Source: Gemmatimonadaceae bacterium (lineage in GTDB: Bacteria; Gemmatimonadota; Gemmatimonadetes; Gemmatimonadales; Gemmatimonadaceae). From it: DNA of 64,000 nucleotides. Made by a program: the position numbers and the translations under genes. Of this stretch, positions 44,952 through 55,187 are shown one piece after another. The stretch lies in the NCBI GenBank assembly GCA_030835125.1, contig JAUQWM010000045.1, positions 1-64,000 on the forward strand, given 5' to 3'. Below the pieces are notes generated by a model. It was given only the letters and a program-made list of their open reading frames with translations. It was not told the origin of the DNA and did not search any database. Positions within the stretch are counted from its first letter, which is position 1, and each line of letters starts with the position of its first letter.

Positions 44952-47408
44952 ATGGCACCTTCCCGGGCCATGTCCTCCGACGCCATGCCAGCCGACCCGG
45001 TTGCCGCGACGAGCCCAGCCGTTGCCGCGGCGGCGCCGCGCGGCGGATCCCGGTCTTTGATTCTCGTCACCGCCTTTACCGCGGCGATCTTCCTCAACGC
45101 CGCCTTGCTGTTCTCGGTGCAGCCGCTGTTCACCAAGATGGTGTTGCCGCTCCTCGGCGGGAGCCCGGCCGTCTGGAACACCTGCCTGCTGTTCTTCCAG
45201 GCCCTGCTGCTGGGGGGCTACCTGTATGCGCACCTGACTTCGCGCCTGCTGTCGCCGCGCCTGCAGGCGGCGCTGCACGTGTCCCTGCTCGCGGTGGCGA
45301 TCCTGGTGCTGCCGATCCACGTGCCGGAATCGTGGTCGCACCCGCCCGGCATCGCCCTGCCGATCGGTTGGCTGCTCGGCCTCCTGACGGTGTCGCTCGG
45401 GTTGCCGTTCTTCCTGCTGTCGGCCGGCGCCCCGATGATGCAGCGCTGGTTCGCCGGCACGAGTCATCCTGCCGCGCACAACCCGTACTTCCTGTACGCG
45501 GCCAGCAACCTGGGGAGCTTTGCGGCGCTGCTCGCCTACCCCTTCGTGATCGAGCCGCGCATGCCGATCTCGGACCAGTCGGTGACGTGGCTCGAGGTCT
45601 ACTATGTGCTCGTCGCGCTCATCGTCGGGTGCGCGGTGACGGCGTGGATCATGCGCCGGCGCGGGGGTATCGCAACGTCGTCCGCCGCGGCCGACGGAAC
45701 GGAGGCGGCACCGTTGCCGTCGCCGGACCACCTGGTCGAGACCGGGGAGGGGATCCGCCTCACTCGACCCGGCGCGCTTCGCGGATCGATGCGGCTGCTG
45801 ATCGAGGAGAATCCTTCCGTCATCCGCCGGTTCCTGCAGCGGGACACGCCGATCGTCGAACCGACCATCGTGCCGTCGCGGCACTGGCGCCTCCGCTGGG
45901 TGTTGCTGTCGTTCGCGCCGTCGAGCCTCCTGATCGGCACCACGACGTACCTGAGTACCGACATTGCGTCGGTGCCCTTCCTGTGGGTCATCCCGCTGGC
46001 GCTGTACCTGCTGACATTCGTGCTCGTCTTCGCGCGCCGTCCGTTGCTGCCCCGGTGGCTGATGCTGCACGTGCAGCTGGTGCTGGGCCTGGTGCTGATG
46101 CTCGAGTTGAGCATCGGTGGCGCCGCCGGAATCGTGGGGCCGGCGGTGGTGCACCTGCTCGCCTTCTTCGCCACCGCGATGATGTGCCATCGCGAACTGG
46201 CCGACTCGCGGCCGAGGGCGGAGTACCTGACCGAGTTCTACCTGTGGATGTCGCTGGGCGGGGTGCTGGGGGGCGTGTTCAACGTGCTGCTGGCACCGGT
46301 GCTGTACGACTCGTTGGTGGAGTACCCGTTCGCGATGGTCGTGGCGTTCGGGTTGCGGCCGGGGCGGGCGAGTGCGTACGGCGGCTGGAGGGACTTCCTG
46401 CGCGACGTCCTGTACCCGGCGGCGATCGGGGCGGTGATCCTGTTTGCCTTCCGCCTCCCCAGCACGCCGGGCGAGTGGTTCAACGGGGGGACGCAGGTCT
46501 TCCTGGCGACGGCGGCGATCACGGTCTTCACGTTCCGGAACCGGCCGTTCCGCCTGGCGCTGGGGGCGGGGGCGATCTATGCGGCGATGCAATTGTCGGG
46601 CGCCGCGCGGAGCAACATCCTGATGCAGGATCGCAGCTTCTTCGGCACGTACCGGGTGCGGCGGATCCTGGACTACCACGTCCTGCAGAACGGGACGACG
46701 ACGCACGGGGGGCAGAGCCGCGAGCTCGCGCGGCGGATGGAGCCGCTCACGTACTACTATCGGGGCGGTCCCCTGGGGGACATCTTCGACAAGCTCGCGC
46801 AGAAACCCGTCCGACGGGTGGCGATGGTCGGCCTCGGGACCGGCACGATCGCGTGCTACGGGCGTCCGGACGAGCACTGGACGTTCTATGAGATCGACCC
46901 GATGGTCGCGCGCATTGCGCAGACCCCGCGCTACTTCACGTACCTGCGGGACTGCGCGCCCCGGACGAACATCGTGATCGGGGATGCGCGCCTGTCGCTG
47001 GGCGCGGCGGCCGACGGCGAGTTCGACCTGATCGTGCTCGATGCGTTTTCGTCCGACGCGATACCGGCCCACCTGATCACGCGGGAGGCCATCGCGCTGT
47101 ACCTGCGGAAGCTGGGTCCCGACGGCGCGATCGCGATCCACATCAGCAACCGGTACCTGGACCTGCGGCCCGTCATCATCGCGCTCGCGAACGACGCCCG
47201 GGCCGCGGGAGCACTGGGCGAGCGCTCACCGGGGGACGAGGATCGCACCAAGTTGTATTATGGCAGTCGGTGGATGGTGCTGGCGAAGCACGCGGCGGCA
47301 CTGTCCGACCTGGTGAAGGTGGACGGCTGGAATGCCCTCGGCACGTGGCCGGAGTCGCGCCTGTGGACGGACGACTACACGGACGTGCTGGGGGCCATCA
47401 AATGGTGA
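44952..47408 (+). CDS. fused membrane protein/spermidine synthase-like methyltransferase fold
   Basis: An 818-residue protein. Residues 35-240 and 300-560 hold about a dozen membrane segments (LILVTAFTAAIFLNAALLF, LLFFQALLLGGYLYA). Residues 610-800 form a spermidine-synthase-like Rossmann domain: VAMVGLGTGTIACYG, YEIDPMVARIA, VIGDARLSLG and DLIVLDAFSSDAIPAHL. Many bacteria encode this fused MFS/spermidine-synthase family; the substrate is unknown. ATG at 44952 is taken; the ATG at 44970 is equally possible. A heptamer array starts one base after the stop. Confidence 0.87.
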   Translation: MAPSRAMSSDAMPADPVAATSPAVAAAAPRGGSRSLILVTAFTAAIFLNAALLFSVQPLFTKMVLPLLGGSPAVWNTCLLFFQALLLGGYLYAHLTSRLLSPRLQAALHVSLLAVAILVLPIHVPESWSHPPGIALPIGWLLGLLTVSLGLPFFLLSAGAPMMQRWFAGTSHPAAHNPYFLYAASNLGSFAALLAYPFVIEPRMPISDQSVTWLEVYYVLVALIVGCAVTAWIMRRRGGIATSSAAADGTEAAPLPSPDHLVETGEGIRLTRPGALRGSMRLLIEENPSVIRRFLQRDTPIVEPTIVPSRHWRLRWVLLSFAPSSLLIGTTTYLSTDIASVPFLWVIPLALYLLTFVLVFARRPLLPRWLMLHVQLVLGLVLMLELSIGGAAGIVGPAVVHLLAFFATAMMCHRELADSRPRAEYLTEFYLWMSLGGVLGGVFNVLLAPVLYDSLVEYPFAMVVAFGLRPGRASAYGGWRDFLRDVLYPAAIGAVILFAFRLPSTPGEWFNGGTQVFLATAAITVFTFRNRPFRLALGAGAIYAAMQLSGAARSNILMQDRSFFGTYRVRRILDYHVLQNGTTTHGGQSRELARRMEPLTYYYRGGPLGDIFDKLAQKPVRRVAMVGLGTGTIACYGRPDEHWTFYEIDPMVARIAQTPRYFTYLRDCAPRTNIVIGDARLSLGAAADGEFDLIVLDAFSSDAIPAHLITREAIALYLRKLGPDGAIAIHISNRYLDLRPVIIALANDARAAGALGERSPGDEDRTKLYYGSRWMVLAKHAAALSDLVKVDGWNALGTWPESRLWTDDYTDVLGAIKW

Positions 47409-47409
47409 A

Positions 47410-47444
47410 CATCGGGCCGGAGGCCAGAGGTCAGGGGCCGGAGG
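47410..47444 (+). repeat. five degenerate heptamers behind a stop codon
   Basis: CATCGGG, CCGGAGG, CCAGAGG, TCAGGGG, CCGGAGG run in strict 7-bp steps from two bases after the TGA. The last unit supplies the GGAGGGG ribosome site of the next gene. Confidence 0.7.
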
Positions 47445-47452
47445 GGATTCCA

Positions 47453-49147
47453 ATGGCGAGATCGCAGCAGGCCGAATACGACGTGTGCGTCGTTGGCTCG
47501 GGAGCCGGGGGCGGGATGGCCGCGCACCGGCTGGCCCTGGGAGGCGCCCGCGTGGTCATGCTCGAGGCGGGGGGATGGTGGGACAACACCACCAGCAACA
47601 GCGCCATGCTCCGGTGGCCCTACCAGTCGTCCCAGCGCGGCGCCTCCACGCCCGAGCGTCCGTTCGGCGAGTTCGACGCGTGCGTGGGCGGCTGGGACCT
47701 GCCGGGCGAGCCGTTCACGCGCGCCGAGGGCACAAGCTTTTCGTGGTGGCGGGCGCGGATGCTCGGCGGGCGCACGAACCACTGGGGCCGCATCTCGCTG
47801 CGCTTCGGCCCGGACGACTTCCGGCGGAAGAGCATCGATGGCCTCGGCGACGACTGGCCCATCTCGTACGACGACCTGGCCCCGTACTACGATCGCGTGG
47901 ACGAGCTGGTGGGGATCTTCGGCAGCCGGGAGAACCTGCCGAACCACCCGGACGGGAAGTTCCAGCCGGCGCCGCGCCCCCGGTGCTACGAGCTGTACGT
48001 GAAGGAGGCGTGTGACCGGATGGGGATCTGGTGCATCCCGGCCCGCCTGTCGGTGATCACGCAGCGGCTGGGCAACCGGGCGCCGTGCCACTACTGCGGC
48101 CAGTGCAACCGCGGCTGCATGACGAACTCCAACTTCTCGTCGCCTAACGTGTTGCTCCTGCCGGCCCGGCAGACCAACCGCCTGCGGATCATCACCAACG
48201 CGATGGCGCGCGAGGTGACGGTCAACCCGCAGGGCCTGGCGACCGGGGTCTCGTACATCGACACGACGACGGGCCGGGACGAGCACGTGCGGGCGCGGGT
48301 GGTGGTGCTGGCGGCGAGCGCGTGCGAGTCGTCGCGGATCCTGCTCAACTCGAAATCATCGCAGTTCCCGCAGGGCCTGGCGAATTCGAGCGGCGTGGTG
48401 GGCAAGTACCTCACCGACACGACCGGCAGCGACGTCGCCGGCTTCATCCCGAAGCTGGTCGACCATGTGCCGCACAACTGCGATGGCGTCGGCGGCGGGC
48501 ACATCTACATGCCCTGGTGGCTCGACAACCGGAAGCTCGACTTCCCGCGCGGCTACCACATCGAGGTGTGGGGCGGGCTGGGGGTGCCGTCGTACGGCTT
48601 CATGGGGGGGATCGAGCGGTACGAGCCGGGGGGCGGGTACGGGGCGCAACTCAAGAACGACTACCGCCGCTACTACGGATCGACGATCGGGTTCTCGGGG
48701 CGCGGCGAGCAGATCCCGAACGCCGACTGTTACTGCGAGCTGGATCCCGCGGTGAAGGACAAGTACGGGATCCCGGTGCTCCGCTTCCACTGGAAGTGGA
48801 CGGACCACGAGATCAACCAGGTGAAGCACATGCAGGAGACGTTCCGGTCGCTGGTGAGCGAGATGGGGGGAGAGGTGTTCTCGCCGATGCCGACGAAGGA
48901 ACGCGGCTACGGCATCGCGACGGGGGGATCGATCATCCATGAACTCGGCACGGTGCGGATGGGGAGCGATCCGAAGGTGTCAGCCCTGAACTCGTGGGGC
49001 CAGGCCTGGGACTGCCGGAACCTGTTCGTTGCCGACGGCGGGTCGTTCGTGTCGCAGGCCGACAAGAACCCGACGTGGACGATCATGGCGCTGGCGATGC
49101 GATCTGCGGACCGTATTCTCGAGCTGCGTCGTACGGGGGCGGTGTGA
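47453..49147 (+). CDS. GMC-family oxidoreductase, gluconate 2-dehydrogenase flavoprotein type
   Basis: A 564-residue FAD enzyme: the Rossmann start DVCVVGSGAGGGMAAHRLA, GGRTNHWGR, and a C-terminal GSIIHELGTVRMGSDP and ADGGSFVSQADKNPTWTIMALAMR with catalytic His and Asn. A cysteine cluster CHYCGQCNRGC near residues 209-219 could hold a metal centre. ATG at 47453 has a good ribosome site (GGAGGGG, 7 bp before). With the small subunit downstream it would form a periplasmic sugar or alcohol dehydrogenase; the Tat signal is on the partner. Confidence 0.88.
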   Translation: MARSQQAEYDVCVVGSGAGGGMAAHRLALGGARVVMLEAGGWWDNTTSNSAMLRWPYQSSQRGASTPERPFGEFDACVGGWDLPGEPFTRAEGTSFSWWRARMLGGRTNHWGRISLRFGPDDFRRKSIDGLGDDWPISYDDLAPYYDRVDELVGIFGSRENLPNHPDGKFQPAPRPRCYELYVKEACDRMGIWCIPARLSVITQRLGNRAPCHYCGQCNRGCMTNSNFSSPNVLLLPARQTNRLRIITNAMAREVTVNPQGLATGVSYIDTTTGRDEHVRARVVVLAASACESSRILLNSKSSQFPQGLANSSGVVGKYLTDTTGSDVAGFIPKLVDHVPHNCDGVGGGHIYMPWWLDNRKLDFPRGYHIEVWGGLGVPSYGFMGGIERYEPGGGYGAQLKNDYRRYYGSTIGFSGRGEQIPNADCYCELDPAVKDKYGIPVLRFHWKWTDHEINQVKHMQETFRSLVSEMGGEVFSPMPTKERGYGIATGGSIIHELGTVRMGSDPKVSALNSWGQAWDCRNLFVADGGSFVSQADKNPTWTIMALAMRSADRILELRRTGAV

Positions 49148-49213: not shown

Positions 49214-49837
49214 ATGAGTGACGAGGAGAGGCACATGCGTGATCTGCCACGGCGCGACGTCGTCAAGTTTCTCGCGGCAGCTCCGCTGGCCGTGTTCGCG
49301 GTGACCGCGCTCGACGTCGAGGAAGCGTCCGTCCTGACGCGGGACACGCTCGAACGGCTCACGCAGCGGGGGCAGCAGTATCAGCCGAAGGTATTCACGG
49401 CCGCCGAGTGGCGTACCGTCAACATCCTGGTCGACCTGGTCATTCCGCGCGACGCGCGCTCGGGGAGTGCCACGGACGCGAAGGTGCCCGAGTTCATGGA
49501 CATCTTCATGCAGACGCGCGAGAACATGCGGACGTGGATGCGGACGGGGCTGACCTGGCTGGACGGGGAGAGCCGGAAGCGCTTCAACAAGGCCTTCGCC
49601 GAGTGCGAGCCGGGGCAGCGCACGGCGGTGCTGGACGACATCGCCTGGCCGCGGCGTGCGCGCCAGGACATGCAGGCGGGGGTGCGGTTCTTCAACAACT
49701 TCCGGAACTTCACGGCGTCGGGGTTCTGGTCGAGCAAGATCGGCGTCGACGACCTGCGGTACATGGGGAACCGGCCGGTGGCGCAGTGGAACGGGTGTCC
49801 GGCGCCGGCGCTGGGCAAGCTCGGGGTGAAGTACTAG
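49214..49837 (+). CDS. gluconate 2-dehydrogenase subunit 3 family protein
   Basis: A 207-residue protein with a Tat-type signal (LPRRDVVKFLAAAPLAVFAV). The mature part matches the gluconate dehydrogenase gamma-subunit family: FTAAEWRTVNILVDLVIPRD, FMDIFMQTRENMRTW, GLTWLD, and ASGFWSSKIGVDDLRYMGN. It carries the signal for the cofactor-loaded flavoprotein encoded just upstream (hitchhiker export, known in this family). ATG at 49214 is used; ATG at 49235 is an alternative. Confidence 0.88.
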   Translation: MSDEERHMRDLPRRDVVKFLAAAPLAVFAVTALDVEEASVLTRDTLERLTQRGQQYQPKVFTAAEWRTVNILVDLVIPRDARSGSATDAKVPEFMDIFMQTRENMRTWMRTGLTWLDGESRKRFNKAFAECEPGQRTAVLDDIAWPRRARQDMQAGVRFFNNFRNFTASGFWSSKIGVDDLRYMGNRPVAQWNGCPAPALGKLGVKY

Positions 49838-50861: not shown

Positions 50862-51902
50862 ATGCCGGCGTCCCCCCGCACTGATCGCCGAACCCTCACC
50901 GCGGCGCTGCTGATCCTGTCGTGCATACCGTCGGCGGCGATCGCACAGGCTCCGGTTACCCACCGGCTGCCCGCGACGCCGGCGACGGTCGCGTACGGCT
51001 ACTACTGGTGGGAGGCGAAGCCGGCGCTGCGCATCTCGTCAGGCGACGTCATCGACGTGGAGACGCTGCTCACGAACACGCCCACCCGGCTGGAGGCGGC
51101 GGGCGTGCCGGCGGCGGAAATCCAGCAGTCGTTGCGCGACATCGTGGCGCAGGTGACGGATCGCGGCCCCGGCGGGCACATCCTGACCGGACCGGTCTAT
51201 GTGGAGTGGGCCGACTCGGGCGACGTCCTCGAGGTGAAGGTGCTGTCGATCGACCTTCCGATCGCGTACGGCTACAACGGGTGCAGCGGGTTCGCGCGCG
51301 ACCTGTGTGATCGCAGCCAGTCCACGACGCGCATCATCCGGCTCGATCGCGAACGCATGGTCGGCCACTTCGGGGAAGGCATCGAGGTACCGCTGAAGCC
51401 GTTCTTCGGCAGCATGGGCGTGGCGCCGCCTCCCGCCCGTGGCCGCGTGAGCAGCAACCCGCCCGACATCCATGCCGGGAACCTCGACAACAAGGAACTG
51501 GTCGCCGGGACCACCCTGTACATCCCTGTCCACGTGAAGGGCGCCCTGTTCGAGGTGGGCGACGGGCACGCTGCCCAGGGCGATGGTGAAGTGGACCAGA
51601 CGGCGATCGAGACGAGCCTGCGTGGACGGCTGCAGCTCACCGTGCGAAAGGGCATGACGCTGGACTGGCCGCGCGGCGAGACCCCGACCCACTGGATCAC
51701 CATGGGCATGGACACGTCGCTGACCCGGTCCACGCGCATCGCGATCGACGAAATGGTGAAGCTGCTGGTGGAGAAGCGTGGCCTGACGCGGATGGCGGCC
51801 TACCAGCTGGCGAGCATCGCCGCCGACCTGCGGATCACCCAGCTGGTCGACGGCAATGTCGGCGTGCACATGATGGTGCCGAAGTCGCTGATCGCCCGCT
51901 GA
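50862..51902 (+). CDS. exported acetamidase/formamidase family protein
   Basis: A 346-residue member of the FmdA/AmdA family: GPVYVEWADSGDVLEVKVL, FFGSMGVAPP, NPPDIHAGNLDNKELVAGTTLYIPV and GDGHAAQGDGEV are characteristic. These enzymes hydrolyse formamide or acetamide. A signal peptide (LTAALLILSCIPSAAIAQ) makes this copy periplasmic. ATG at 50862 begins it; ATG at 50826 would add 12 residues. The true substrate is open. Confidence 0.87.
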   Translation: MPASPRTDRRTLTAALLILSCIPSAAIAQAPVTHRLPATPATVAYGYYWWEAKPALRISSGDVIDVETLLTNTPTRLEAAGVPAAEIQQSLRDIVAQVTDRGPGGHILTGPVYVEWADSGDVLEVKVLSIDLPIAYGYNGCSGFARDLCDRSQSTTRIIRLDRERMVGHFGEGIEVPLKPFFGSMGVAPPPARGRVSSNPPDIHAGNLDNKELVAGTTLYIPVHVKGALFEVGDGHAAQGDGEVDQTAIETSLRGRLQLTVRKGMTLDWPRGETPTHWITMGMDTSLTRSTRIAIDEMVKLLVEKRGLTRMAAYQLASIAADLRITQLVDGNVGVHMMVPKSLIAR

Positions 51903-51916
51903 CGGGGCCTCCGGGC

Positions 51917-52444
51917 CTACCGCTTCTTCAGCAGGGTCTCCGCGGCGAGCTGGTGCGCCGCGAAAGCCGGCGCGACCTTCTCGACGAACGCCTTCAGCTC
52001 GGCGTTCCGGATGGCAGGCAACAGCGTGGTGGTGACGGCGTCGATGACCGCCTTGTGGTACGCGACCTCGTGCTCCAGGAACGCCCGGTCGAACGCGGCC
52101 CCGCTCAGGCCCTGCAACTTCTTGATGGCGGCCTCGTGCGCGACCTTGAGCGGGAAGTCGGCGGCTACGGGCGTCGGCGTCACCTTCAGCGTCGCGGCCA
52201 ACTCGCGACCCTGGTCCTGCACTGCCTTGTGGTCCCGCGCCAGCATGGCGCCGAAATCCCTGACGTCCTGGCGTCCGGCCTTCGAGGCGGCCAGTGATCC
52301 CGTGGCGATGTCCCACGTGTTGGCGATGTCGAAGATGCCGACGATGGCGGCGTCGTCGAGGGCAGGCGCAGGGGCCTTTCCCTGGGCCAGCAGGACGGCC
52401 GGAGCCAGCCAGGCGGCAGTGAGGATCATGCGGAGCGTGCGCAT
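51917..52444 (-). CDS. DUF4142 exported protein
   Basis: A 175-residue protein with signal peptide (LRMILTAAWLAPAVLLAQ) and a DUF4142 four-helix, ferritin-like domain: DIANTWDIATGSLAASK, DVRDFGAMLARDHKAVQ, FDRAFLEHEVAYHKAVIDAV and LKAFVEKVAPAFAAHQLAAETLL. Function unknown. Its -35 box lies in a palindrome shared with the divergent regulator gene, so it is probably repressed by it. Confidence 0.85.
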   Translation of the reverse strand: MRTLRMILTAAWLAPAVLLAQGKAPAPALDDAAIVGIFDIANTWDIATGSLAASKAGRQDVRDFGAMLARDHKAVQDQGRELAATLKVTPTPVAADFPLKVAHEAAIKKLQGLSGAAFDRAFLEHEVAYHKAVIDAVTTTLLPAIRNAELKAFVEKVAPAFAAHQLAAETLLKKR

Positions 52445-52488
52445 TCTGGAATCCCTCGGAGTGAAAATGGGTTTGAGAAGGAAGCCGG

Positions 52489-52550
52489 AGCATGGCGGCA
52501 GTTCACCAATAAGTCAAGTAATTACTTGACATATCTAGCTCGACTATATT
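52489..52550. promoter_or_regulatory. divergent promoters over an 18-bp perfect palindrome
   Basis: GTCAAGTAATTACTTGAC (52513-52530) is a perfect palindrome. Minus strand: TTGACT (52517-52512), 17 bp, CATGCT (52494-52489) for the DUF4142 gene. Plus strand: TTACTT (52522-52527), 17 bp, TATATT (52545-52550) for the regulator. Both -35 boxes lie in the palindrome, as expected of a shared repressor operator. The regulator ATG is 5 bp beyond its -10. Confidence 0.7.
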
Positions 52551-52555
52551 GTGGC

Positions 52556-53176
52556 ATGGCTCGATCCAGCACTTCCCATCCGGCCCGGGCAGCCGTGCTG
52601 GACCTCATCCGGCGCGGCGCGCGCACGGTGAATGCGATGGCCGCCGAACTCCGGATCTCCGACAACGCCGTCCGCGCGCACCTGTCCGCGCTGGAGCGCG
52701 ATGGGCTGATCGAGCGGAAGGGCCTGGTCAGGTCCGGAACGGCTGGCCAACCCGCCGCCGAGTACGACCTGACCGCGGCCGGCGAGGTGGCGCAGTCGAA
52801 GGCGTATCCGACTGCGCTGGCGGCCGTGGTGGCGGCCGCCAGCCACCGATTCGACGCACGAGCGAGACGGGCCCTGTTCCTCGATGCCGGAAGGCGGCTG
52901 GCAGCCACCATGCCGTCCCGGGAAGCGGGAACTGTGGCGGAGCGGGCGAAGGCGTGCGCGACGCTGATCGAATCCCTCGGCGGCCACGCGACGGTCACCG
53001 CCGCTCGCGGATCCGCAACGATTCAGGGCGCTGGGTGTCCGTTGGCGGCCGGTGTGCGCGCGGACCCCGCGACCTGTTTCCTGATCGAGGGACTACTCGA
53101 AGCCCATACGGGAAGCGAGGCAGAGCAGCAGTGCAGTCACGGGGAACATCCCGCCTGCCGGTTCCGGTTGACGTAG
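52556..53176 (+). CDS. COG2345-type winged-helix regulator with C-terminal cysteines
   Basis: A 206-residue protein. Residues 5-75 form an ArsR/MarR-like winged helix (VLDLIRRGARTVNAMAAEL, SDNAVRAHLSALERDGLIER). The C-terminal domain has cysteines near 143, 162, 174, 194 and 200 (GCPLAAG, CFLIEG, CSHGEHPACRF), as in SufR-related sensors that hold an Fe-S cluster or metal. It probably represses itself and the divergent DUF4142 gene in response to iron, redox or metal state (inference). The ATG at 52556 follows the -10 by five bases. Confidence 0.75.
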   Translation: MARSSTSHPARAAVLDLIRRGARTVNAMAAELRISDNAVRAHLSALERDGLIERKGLVRSGTAGQPAAEYDLTAAGEVAQSKAYPTALAAVVAAASHRFDARARRALFLDAGRRLAATMPSREAGTVAERAKACATLIESLGGHATVTAARGSATIQGAGCPLAAGVRADPATCFLIEGLLEAHTGSEAEQQCSHGEHPACRFRLT

Positions 53177-53388
53177 CGTACGGGAACGCGTCGGTCGAAC
53201 CCGACGTATGACACCGGCACGCGCACGCGCGAGGACCGGCACACCATGCTGCTCACACCTTCCGGTCTGGTGAAGTCAGGCGTATTTCCCATCACGGTGA
53301 GCGTGGAGTCGTGCGGAATCGACCGCCATCCAGATCGTGCCGTTGGGGTCCGCTGGATGAGGTCGATGTTCCGCGCGGAGGAGATACA
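53177..53388. other. 212-bp intergenic region
   Basis: No gene seen. A GAGGAG ribosome site for the next gene lies at its right end. No clear hairpin ends the regulator transcript. Confidence 0.4.
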
Positions 53389-53859
53389 ATGAACCGGTCT
53401 GCCCTGGTGGGTGCTCTCGCCCTGGTGTCCGCCTGTGCTTCAGGGGGCGCCCCGGCGTCACGCGGCCCCTCGACACCCATCGAGGGCACCTACGAGTACG
53501 TGGCCAACATCCCCGGCGGTCAGCAGGTCCGCGGCGTCATGCGGTTCCTGGGTGACACGGTCCTTGTCGAACCCGTCACCGAGTACTGTCGGCCCGCGCT
53601 GGGCGCCCCATCCCTGCAGGTGATCCGTTACACCTGCAACGGCTCGGGGACGTTCGAGCAGTTGCAGCTCTCGATCGACCGGCGCAACCCGGTGCAGCTC
53701 TCACGGTGGTCGGCGACCTTCCGGGTGCAGAAGCGCCGGGAGGTCTGCGTCCGGTACGAGGTGCGAGCCGGGCGGCAGGTCTGCGTGGAGACGACGACCG
53801 AGACGTACGAGACGTCCGAGTCGCGAGGGGGCACGCTGCAACTCACGCGGACGCCGTAG
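53389..53859 (+). CDS. small lipoprotein of unknown function
   Basis: A 156-residue protein with lipobox VSAC (Cys16) and a Gly/Ser/Pro linker. The mature part is beta-rich (GTYEYVANIPGGQQVRGVM) with four cysteines that could pair, and ends in repeated VCVRYEVRAGRQVCVETTTETYE. No known family. The ATG has GAGGAG 5 bp before it. It may be an outer-membrane-bound scaffold; nothing more can be said. Confidence 0.65.
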   Translation: MNRSALVGALALVSACASGGAPASRGPSTPIEGTYEYVANIPGGQQVRGVMRFLGDTVLVEPVTEYCRPALGAPSLQVIRYTCNGSGTFEQLQLSIDRRNPVQLSRWSATFRVQKRREVCVRYEVRAGRQVCVETTTETYETSESRGGTLQLTRTP

Positions 53860-53945: not shown

Positions 53946-55187
53946 ATGCCAAACCAGCGCCTCGGCGTCGCTTTCGTCGGTAGCGGCTTCAACACGCGGT
54001 TCCACCTCCAGGCCTGGCGCGGCGTGCGCGACGCGGACGTCGTGGGTATCTGGAGCCCGAATTCCGCCAACGCCGCGTCGGCGGCGGCGCTGGCGCGCAA
54101 GCTGGACGTTGGCCCGGCGCGGCCCTACCGCAGCATCGCCGACCTGGTGATGGACAAGCGGGTGGATGCCATCTGGCTCTGCGGCCCCAACCATGCGCGC
54201 ATCGAGAACGTCGAGGAGATCGTCGACACGGTGCACCGGGGCCGCGGTGACCTGAAGGGCATCGCCTGCGAGAAGCCGCTGGCGCGCAATGTGGCCGAGG
54301 CGGAACGGGTCGAGGTGATGGCCGAGAGCATCGGGGTCCTGACCGGCTACCTCGAGAACCAGCTCTTCGCCCCGCACATCGAGGCGGGCAAGGCACTGCT
54401 GTGGGCCCGCGGAGCTGCCACCACGGGGCGGCCGTACCTGGCGCGCGCCGCGGAGGAGCACTCGGGTCCGCACATGCCGTGGTTCTGGCAGGGATCGCTC
54501 CAGGGGGGCGGGGTGCTGAACGACATGATGTGCCACTCGGCCCTCGTCGTCAGGCACCTGCTGACGAAGCCGGGCGAGCCGCTGAGCACCGTGAAGCCGG
54601 TGCGGGTCACCGGGCACATCGCGTCACTCAAGTGGACGCGGCCACGCTACGTGCGACAGTTGAAGCAGCAGATGAGCCACGCGGTGGACTACGAGAACGC
54701 GCCGGCGGAAGACTTCGCGAGCATGACGATCGAGTTCAAGACGAACGACGGGCACAAGGTGATCGGTGAGGCGACGACGTCCTGGAGCTTCGTCGGCGCG
54801 GGCCTCCGGCTCTCGGCGGAACTGCTCGGTCCCGAGTACTCGCTCAAGTGGAACTCGCTCGACAGCGGGTTGCAGCTCTTCTTCAGCCGGGCGGTGCGCG
54901 GCAAGGCGGGGGAGGACCTGGTGGAGAAACAGAACGCCGAGGTCGGCGTGATGCCGGTCGTCCCCGAGGAATGGCTGGCGTACGGGTACACGAACGAGGA
55001 TCGGCACTACGTGCGCGCCTTCCTGGGGAAGGAGAAGCCACGGCTGACGTTTGCGGATGGCGTCGACGTGGTGCGGATGCTGATGACCGCGTACAAGAGC
55101 GCGGAGCAGGGCAAGACGTTGCGCTACCAGCCCTCGACCCTGACCCGGTTCGTGCCGAAGGTGGCAAAGGGGACGTGGAGGCCCTGA
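53946..55187 (+). CDS. Gfo/Idh/MocA-family oxidoreductase
   Basis: A 413-residue NAD(P)-dependent sugar-type dehydrogenase: VAFVGSGFNTRFHLQAWRGV (Rossmann), ADVVGIWSPN, CEKPLARNVAEAE (the family EKP motif), and GGGVLNDMMCHSALVVRHLL with the usual Gly-x-x-x-Asp-x-x-x-His catalytic pattern. The substrate, likely a sugar or inositol derivative, is unknown. No signal peptide. A TPR protein and an MFS transporter follow, but spacing does not prove an operon. Confidence 0.88.
   Translation: MPNQRLGVAFVGSGFNTRFHLQAWRGVRDADVVGIWSPNSANAASAAALARKLDVGPARPYRSIADLVMDKRVDAIWLCGPNHARIENVEEIVDTVHRGRGDLKGIACEKPLARNVAEAERVEVMAESIGVLTGYLENQLFAPHIEAGKALLWARGAATTGRPYLARAAEEHSGPHMPWFWQGSLQGGGVLNDMMCHSALVVRHLLTKPGEPLSTVKPVRVTGHIASLKWTRPRYVRQLKQQMSHAVDYENAPAEDFASMTIEFKTNDGHKVIGEATTSWSFVGAGLRLSAELLGPEYSLKWNSLDSGLQLFFSRAVRGKAGEDLVEKQNAEVGVMPVVPEEWLAYGYTNEDRHYVRAFLGKEKPRLTFADGVDVVRMLMTAYKSAEQGKTLRYQPSTLTRFVPKVAKGTWRP

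Follow-up and report, generated by a model that had tools for sequence, protein, structure and literature searches.

Two described regulators come closest to the one reported here. The Fe-S repressor SufR is published with the site CAAC-N6-GTTG (accessible text of PMC8593673 and PMC13421787), and the cysteine spacings of the SufR proteins in the accessible literature vary. For Mtb SufR, the accessible text reports that cysteines C203, C216, and C244 (spacings X12 and X27) are needed for the protein to replace the wild-type gene and that cysteine variants still repressed a reporter (PMC6034842). MsvR of methanogens is described as a V4R redox regulator with cysteines C206, C232, and C240 that represses its own gene and, in one species, fpaA at a shared promoter region (accessible text of PMC3729527). 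Literature titles and abstracts held no description of the SufR paralogue presented below or of a link between SufR and DUF4142, and the term “SufR-like” was not found in the literature searched. To our knowledge, DUF4142 proteins are widespread and uncharacterised. In accessible text they have been called ferritin-like and putatively exported (PMC11317620), and CopM is described as a periplasmic Cu(I) binder that gives copper resistance (PMC4335983).

The window analysed here, a 64-kb stretch of DNA from a Gemmatimonadaceae bacterium, holds a palindrome in the 111-bp gap (52445–52555) between a DUF4142 gene and a divergently oriented regulator gene (Table 1). The best explanation, which as a whole we consider probable, is that the adjacent regulator, a SufR paralogue that governs DUF4142 and probably senses Fe-S, uses this palindrome as its operator. 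As in the accessible descriptions of SufR, a winged helix is joined to a cysteine-bearing C-terminal domain with the spacing C-X12-C-X26/27-C (here C161-X12-C174-X26-C201), the half-sites are of the form CAAn with N6 spacing, autoregulation would apply, and the arrangement is divergent, as for SufR in cyanobacteria. Unlike SufR, the window regulator falls in a separate clade, has an additional conserved cysteine (C193), scores far below the SufR cut-off, and is associated with CAAG rather than CAAC in its own genome. Nor does it stand next to sufB: its neighbours are DUF4142 and unrelated genes, and the paralogues in general sit beside DUF4142, cytochrome c, and other genes, not beside suf. 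MsvR offers a second parallel, with its helix-turn-helix and V4R domain, its conserved cysteines, and its action on its own promoter and one redox gene in one species. However, MsvR is archaeal, and the accessible text gives it the operator TTCGTA-N4-TACGAA and cysteine spacings of X25 and X7 (PMC3729527).

Table 1. Features of the DUF4142–regulator locus, in window positions
Feature	Position	Strand	Basis
DUF4142 gene, 175 aa, probably secreted four-helix protein, candidate target gene	51917..52444	-	PF13628; secretion judged from the N-terminus
-10-like CATGCT of DUF4142 promoter, 17 bp from -35	52489..52494	-	fits yATnyT; under the strict-scan threshold
Extended operator AATAAGTCAAGTAATTACTTGACATATC	52508..52535	.	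20/22 consensus positions; R1 profile 30.3 bits
-35 element TTGACT of DUF4142 promoter, within the operator	52512..52517	-	sequence; -10 at 17 bp in 50-site profile
Palindrome GTCAAGTAATTACTTGAC, putative operator core	52513..52530	.	sequence, uniqueness, core kept across loci
TTGACA hexamer on regulator side, -35 role uncertain	52526..52531	+	sequence; relatives without consistent -10
TATATT, possible regulator -10	52545..52550	+	sequence; 13 bp from TTGACA, 5 bp before ATG
Regulator gene, 206 aa: winged helix (HTH_20/ArsR type) and V4R/TRAPP-like C-terminal domain	52556..53176	+	HTH_20, 40.1 bits; predicted structure

An earlier, sequence-only reading of this DNA had described a perfect 18-bp palindrome and proposed a search of the genome for it. 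The description is accurate, since GTCAAGTAATTACTTGAC equals its own reverse complement, and the search, once run, showed it to be a single-copy element. No other match with up to three mismatches occurs in the 64-kb window (0 in 100 shuffles), and no second one is found elsewhere in the 4.48-Mb genome. The gap is AT-rich, with 37–48% GC in three 60-base windows from 52460 to 52559 as against 72–77% from 52560 onward, a composition in which a palindrome could arise by chance. This origin is scarcely credible given that the shuffles yielded none, that the element is rare per genome, and that it has been retained ahead of the regulator's relatives and of target genes at other loci; we rejected it on the shuffles, the single genome copy, and the conservation across loci. 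Self-complementarity could also denote an RNA hairpin or terminator rather than a DNA operator, and a terminator scan does flag the palindrome (1 terminator, where shuffles lead one to expect 0.8). However, the palindrome lies upstream of both divergent genes, and in relatives its right half changes without matching changes in the left half, which a hairpin would not allow. A hairpin is thus very improbable, and it was rejected.

The same reading had placed the -35 boxes of both divergent genes within the palindrome. This stood for the DUF4142 side. When 50 sites were aligned on the side of the DUF4142 type, TTGAC was followed after 17 bp by a -10 element yATnyT (A 70%, last T 68%); the 100% conservation of TTG in this -35 is partly an effect of how the sites were selected. 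For the regulator side it was not confirmed: the best -10-like element is 13 bp away, and the 50 aligned sites revealed no consistent -10 among relatives and a half-site less conserved than that facing DUF4142. Between TATATT and the regulator ATG there is no ribosome-binding site. Given also how close TATATT ends to that ATG, the regulator transcript may be leaderless, as Mtb sufR is described to be in the accessible text of PMC6034842.

The geometry of operator and promoter suggests that a bound regulator would repress DUF4142 by covering its -35 element. Alternatively, the regulator could be an activator, or bind in both of its states, so that the palindrome raises DUF4142 transcription. 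The -10 element of DUF4142 (CATGCT) has the weakness seen in activated promoters, and no promoter was found on either strand of 51850–53450 in a strict sigma-70 scan. Nonetheless, the overlap of the operator with the DUF4142 -35 is a position that favours occlusion, and SufR is described as a repressor in the accessible literature. We regard activation as quite unlikely and retain repression as the preferred sign of control.

Conservation of the palindrome upstream of orthologues, on which the earlier reading had staked its proposal, was found, and the pairing of DUF4142 with the regulator is conserved as well. The regulator is carried by 23 of 60 related genomes at E <=1e-15, its own genome included. 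After a shared upstream element had been spotted by eye, loci were scored by their matches to AATAAGTCAAG-N6-CTTGACTTATT over 22 positions. At least 16 of the 22 were matched at 14 of 27 loci from relatives, with no shuffle of 200 as good, and at 49 of 71 loci from a wider search, with at most 1 of 200 shuffles as good. Judged by their record titles, the 49 loci span six phyla: 23 are from Gemmatimonadota, 14 from Acidobacteriota, 5 from Chloroflexota, 4 from Verrucomicrobiota, 2 from Rubrobacter, and 1 from Abditibacterium. Many of the loci, and most of those bearing the operator, come from metagenome bins, and the wider loci overlap the genome set (for example, L061 and G034:C98); isolates include Pyrinomonas methylaliphatogenes K22 (20 of 22) and Thermogemmatispora carboxidivorans PM5 (16). 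Scores below 16 were obtained at 22 of the 71 wider loci and 13 of the 27 relatives' loci, several of which have the left half only. Among the 71, 13 score 14 or 15 and 9 score less than 14 (L064, L075, L082, L109, L115, L117, L118, L129, and L131, the last related in the helix region only). Of 70 upstream regions, 43 contain the pattern GTCAAn-N6-nTTGA, versus 0 of 70 stretches just inside genes, a coding-region control that differs from promoters in base composition.

The recognition helix tracks the operator. A genome scan with a single protein as query gave no matches, and the 71 loci were gathered with patterns from a 7-row alignment that included the TDN helix motif. The 71-locus set therefore leans towards Asp36, so the association was tested within the 27 relatives' loci only. 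There, the operator accompanies Asp36 at 18 of 19 loci as against 2 of 8 with other residues (Fisher p 6e-4, at a score threshold of 14 that was set after the scores had been seen). Six loci lack both Asp36 and this operator (L016, L018, L020, L027, L028, and L029); L011 and L022 lack Asp36, yet have the operator. Five loci without Asp36 (L016, L018, L027, L028, and L029) have cytochrome c upstream, and in place of GTCAAG-N6-CTTGAC they seemingly have AT-rich inverted repeats of another kind, for instance AAGATATTTATTAAATATCT in L027.

Kinship with SufR is apparent from profile matches. With the SufR model TIGR02702, all 43 members give a match at E <=0.001 (best 3.6e-20), compared with 41 for a generic ArsR/SmtB model and 1 for the NCBIfam MsvR model, the latter at the same threshold. 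The window regulator itself scores 35.3 bits, below the 178.8-bit cut-off of TIGR02702, in a match confined to its DNA-binding part (residues 16–79, model positions 9–71), while four paralogues match from model position 2 or 8 to positions 182–188 of 208. In a tree of 82 proteins, 31 SufR proteins are split from 51 paralogues with 100/99 support, where L227, on a long branch, was placed with SufR by score alone. The window protein, whose branch is long (1.33), clusters with L011 and L022 (100/77). We therefore regard the regulator as a SufR paralogue, for which we propose a separate operator and regulon.

A separate SufR is encoded in the same genome (G000:C65:20942-21626). At 111.4 bits, it too lies below the TIGR02702 cut-off, which was passed in 0 of 50 relatives. 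It has the same cysteine spacing as C161, C174, and C201, and downstream of it come two SufBD-core genes flanking an ABC ATPase gene, and beyond these a NifU-like gene, a row that by order and domain corresponds to sufB, sufC, sufD, and sufU. The 50 relatives hold 30 SufR-like genes, 29 of which have sufB nearby. The promoter of the own-genome sufR contains GTCAACACATCTGTTGAC, with the core GTCAAC-N6-GTTGAC, which departs from the window operator by one base per half-site. Across genomes, exact CAAC-N6-GTTG is present at 8 of 30 SufR loci (22 of 30 have none within 250 bp) and at 1 of 70 paralogue loci, and exact CAAG-N6-CTTG at 0 of 30 and 10 of 70, respectively. In paralogue loci, GTCAA is followed by G in 32 of 47 pattern matches and by C in 2, and the right half often has T. 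Since so few paralogue loci have exact CAAG-N6-CTTG, the right half must be considered loose; the one-base contrast with SufR thus holds exactly for this genome and is no general rule.

What the regulator senses can be approached through its cysteines. The earlier reading had counted five in the C-terminal part. Five are present, at residues 134, 161, 174, 193, and 201, but only four are conserved: C161, C174, C193, and C201 are among 12 positions invariant in 28 regulator sequences, an alignment in which C134 is not conserved. In 43 wider sequences, C161, C174, and C193 remain invariant and C201 is kept at 90% or more. The predicted structure (mean pLDDT 88) comprises a winged helix and a C-terminal domain of the V4R/TRAPP/BcsD type. 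The structural matches of this domain are 7zzq_K, 8pkd_A (BcsD), 2cfh_C (TPC6B), 7vqf (MopR), and 5frw_A (PoxR), with Z of 11.1–12.1 and rmsd of 2.6–3.0 over 121–124 aligned residues. A BcsD model (Cellsynth_D) matches 7 of 43 members (best E 4.6e-4), and a V4R sequence model is absent among the matches listed (25 of 46 families). The structural matches listed include no solved SufR, which has no bearing on the SufR fold.

These folds leave some room for a regulator without an Fe-S cluster, in which the cysteines would hold structural or sensory zinc or undergo thiol–disulfide exchange, and repression would be relieved when a metal or small molecule occupies the V4R-like pocket, after the manner of phenol sensors or of MsvR. 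Zinc or a ligand can take the place of Fe-S in the V4R fold, MopR has a zinc site, and the matches include MopR and PoxR as phenol sensors. In addition, C193-X7-C201 shares the X7 spacing given for MsvR in the accessible text of PMC3729527. We nevertheless judge such a regulator unlikely, given that the X12 and X26 spacings of C161, C174, and C201 follow SufR and that the SufR model matches all members and the MsvR model just one, although the generic ArsR/SmtB model matches nearly as many. Most likely, the regulator holds a cluster, which we infer to be [4Fe-4S], on four cysteines of its V4R-like domain. The Fe-S, metal, or redox sensing guessed earlier fits both the SufR kinship and the four conserved cysteines.

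How far the operator extends beyond this locus was determined with R1, a sequence-only operator profile built from 37 regulator-side sites and the window site, which is itself 1 of the 38 rows. Because R1 was built from regulator-side sites, some circularity attaches to its matches next to regulators, but none to its matches elsewhere. Stricter filters were applied in searches over more than 40 genomes. In the own genome, the extended operator is the only R1 match at E <=0.5. Among the 60 relatives at the same threshold, 14 genomes have a match: 13 of 23 with the regulator versus 1 of 37 without it (Fisher p 2.5e-6). The lone match without a regulator, in G002, is weak (E 0.41), and no target-family gene was seen there. 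A search of 249 genomes of the phylum at E <=0.1 returned 35 distinct sites in 26 genomes, of which 25 are beside the regulator, 9 elsewhere, and 1 at a contig end (G254:C31, with DUF4142 and cupredoxin on the other side).

Each of the 9 sites found elsewhere stands upstream of a gene from a target family, and none of them was used to build R1. Six precede a di-heme cytochrome c gene (G016, G030, G069, G097, G194, and G203, with G030 and G069 belonging to one genus), and one precedes DUF4142 (G048). The others lie before a cupredoxin–DUF4142 pair, 2 kb from the site of its regulator (G150), and before a GTP cyclohydrolase I gene (G207). Outside the phylum, R1 matched in 19 of 20 genomes at E <=0.05, these genomes having been reached through the wider loci, and four extra sites were found. 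One, in an Acidobacteriota bin, is an operator-like site before a Bac_globin gene with a signal-peptide-like start (G263:C4:58765, L223), and another precedes a di-haem oxidoreductase gene at a distance of about 550 bp. A third belongs to a second regulator copy with its own operator-like site in a Chloroflexota bin (G275:C24:228995, L224). The fourth, on the same contig as a regulator and 4.8 kb from it, precedes a glycosyl hydrolase 15 gene, which is no target family (G278:C21:953, L225).

Neighbouring genes were identified with a home-made ORF caller and HMMs built from neighbour clusters; these HMMs, together with the earlier loci, also served to assign the 25 sites beside the regulator. 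In the 1.6 kb upstream, all 27 relatives' loci have DUF4142 or cytochrome c on the opposite strand, and 22 of them have DUF4142. Upstream sequence was sufficient at 66 of 70 wider loci, among which DUF4142 is found within 2.5 kb at 30 of 34 Gemmatimonadota loci versus 0 of 32 others; the regulator and its operator are therefore more widely distributed than the pairing with DUF4142. Neighbours outside Gemmatimonadota include a Rieske-FAD oxidoreductase (9 of 32) and cytochrome c (3 of 32), together with single cases of DUF2231 (one fused to Rieske), GTP cyclohydrolase II, and DUF488. The two-gene regulon foreseen by the sequence-only reading is thus compatible with the own genome, where the profile search gave one site, but the regulon is larger in relatives, where cytochrome c, cupredoxin, Rieske-FAD oxidoreductase, and GTP cyclohydrolase join it. 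A cytochrome c query gave no match in the own genome.

The DUF4142 protein matches PF13628 at 102.5 bits, against a gathering cut-off of 27. In 31 DUF4142 sequences, D45, D71, H72, H130, and H164 are invariant and E126 is nearly so. The predicted structure is a four-helix bundle (mean pLDDT 91); among solved structures it best matches CopM, DUF305, Rv2844, and YciF, while Dps ranks lower and no match has E <0.001. CopM and DUF305 reach TM-scores of 0.61–0.69 on the query with a Foldseek E no better than 1.5e-3, and a profile search yielded CopM weakly (E 8e-5). CopM and DUF305 share the four-helix bundle with DUF4142; they differ from it in sequence (about 12–15% identity), the conserved residues of DUF4142 being Asp, Glu, and His. 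From the model, we predict that DUF4142 folds as a four-helix bundle of the CopM/ferritin-like kind in which Asp and His residues are conserved, and it may bind metal. Two further DUF4142-like sequences occur in the own genome, G000:C63:35681-36079 (43.9 bits) and C71:54513-54683 (23.9, below the cut-off), neither with an operator match.

Computation, then, showed where the site lies, that it is conserved, that it recurs before target families at places without the regulator beside them, and how the proteins are related; we infer DNA binding, repression as the sign of control, the cluster type, the signal, and metal binding by DUF4142. A dimer of the regulator would bind GTCAAG-N6-CTTGAC over the DUF4142 -35 and close to its own start, carrying a [4Fe-4S] cluster on the four cysteines of its V4R-like domain. 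Bound in this way, it would block RNA polymerase at DUF4142 and limit its own synthesis. Loss or alteration of the cluster by oxidants, nitric oxide, metal excess, or iron shortage would lift repression, and the DUF4142 protein, probably exported, would bind or sequester a metal. In related bacteria, further metal and electron-transfer genes would be under the same operator. The recurrence of similar sites before the regulator in several phyla and before related genes elsewhere would tie DUF4142 to a redox or metal-stress circuit, for which copper, nitric oxide (in view of the globin gene), and superoxide may each be relevant. A conserved operator before DUF4142, both beside and away from the regulator, would place this family in a defined, testable redox or metal circuit.

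More speculatively, the SufR paralogue family, present in at least six phyla, may have arisen by an operator switch from CAAC to CAAG, in which the fourth base of the half-site changed, and may have separated from the suf operon to control an Fe-S-sensed regulon for metal and electron-transfer proteins that are exported or sit in the membrane, including DUF4142, di-heme cytochrome c, cupredoxin, Rieske-FAD oxidoreductase, GTP cyclohydrolases, and a globin. We give this reading as a whole somewhat less than an even chance. If it is correct, a single cell senses damage to its clusters by way of two repressors insulated from each other, the first serving to rebuild clusters and the second to protect against whatever destroys them. 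A genome that encodes both SufR and its paralogue, whose operators differ by one base in each half-site and whose recognition helices differ as well, would offer a ready system for the study of insulation between related Fe-S repressors. The paralogue also points to a broader use of the fold.

The locus is flanked in the window by genes of three other families, a GMC-type oxidoreductase (47270–49147), a gluconate 2-dehydrogenase subunit 3-like protein (49214–49837), and a GFO/IDH/MocA protein (53946–55187). The same three families are found downstream of the regulator in G040 and G052 (loci L038 and L051), the two relatives closest in the tree.
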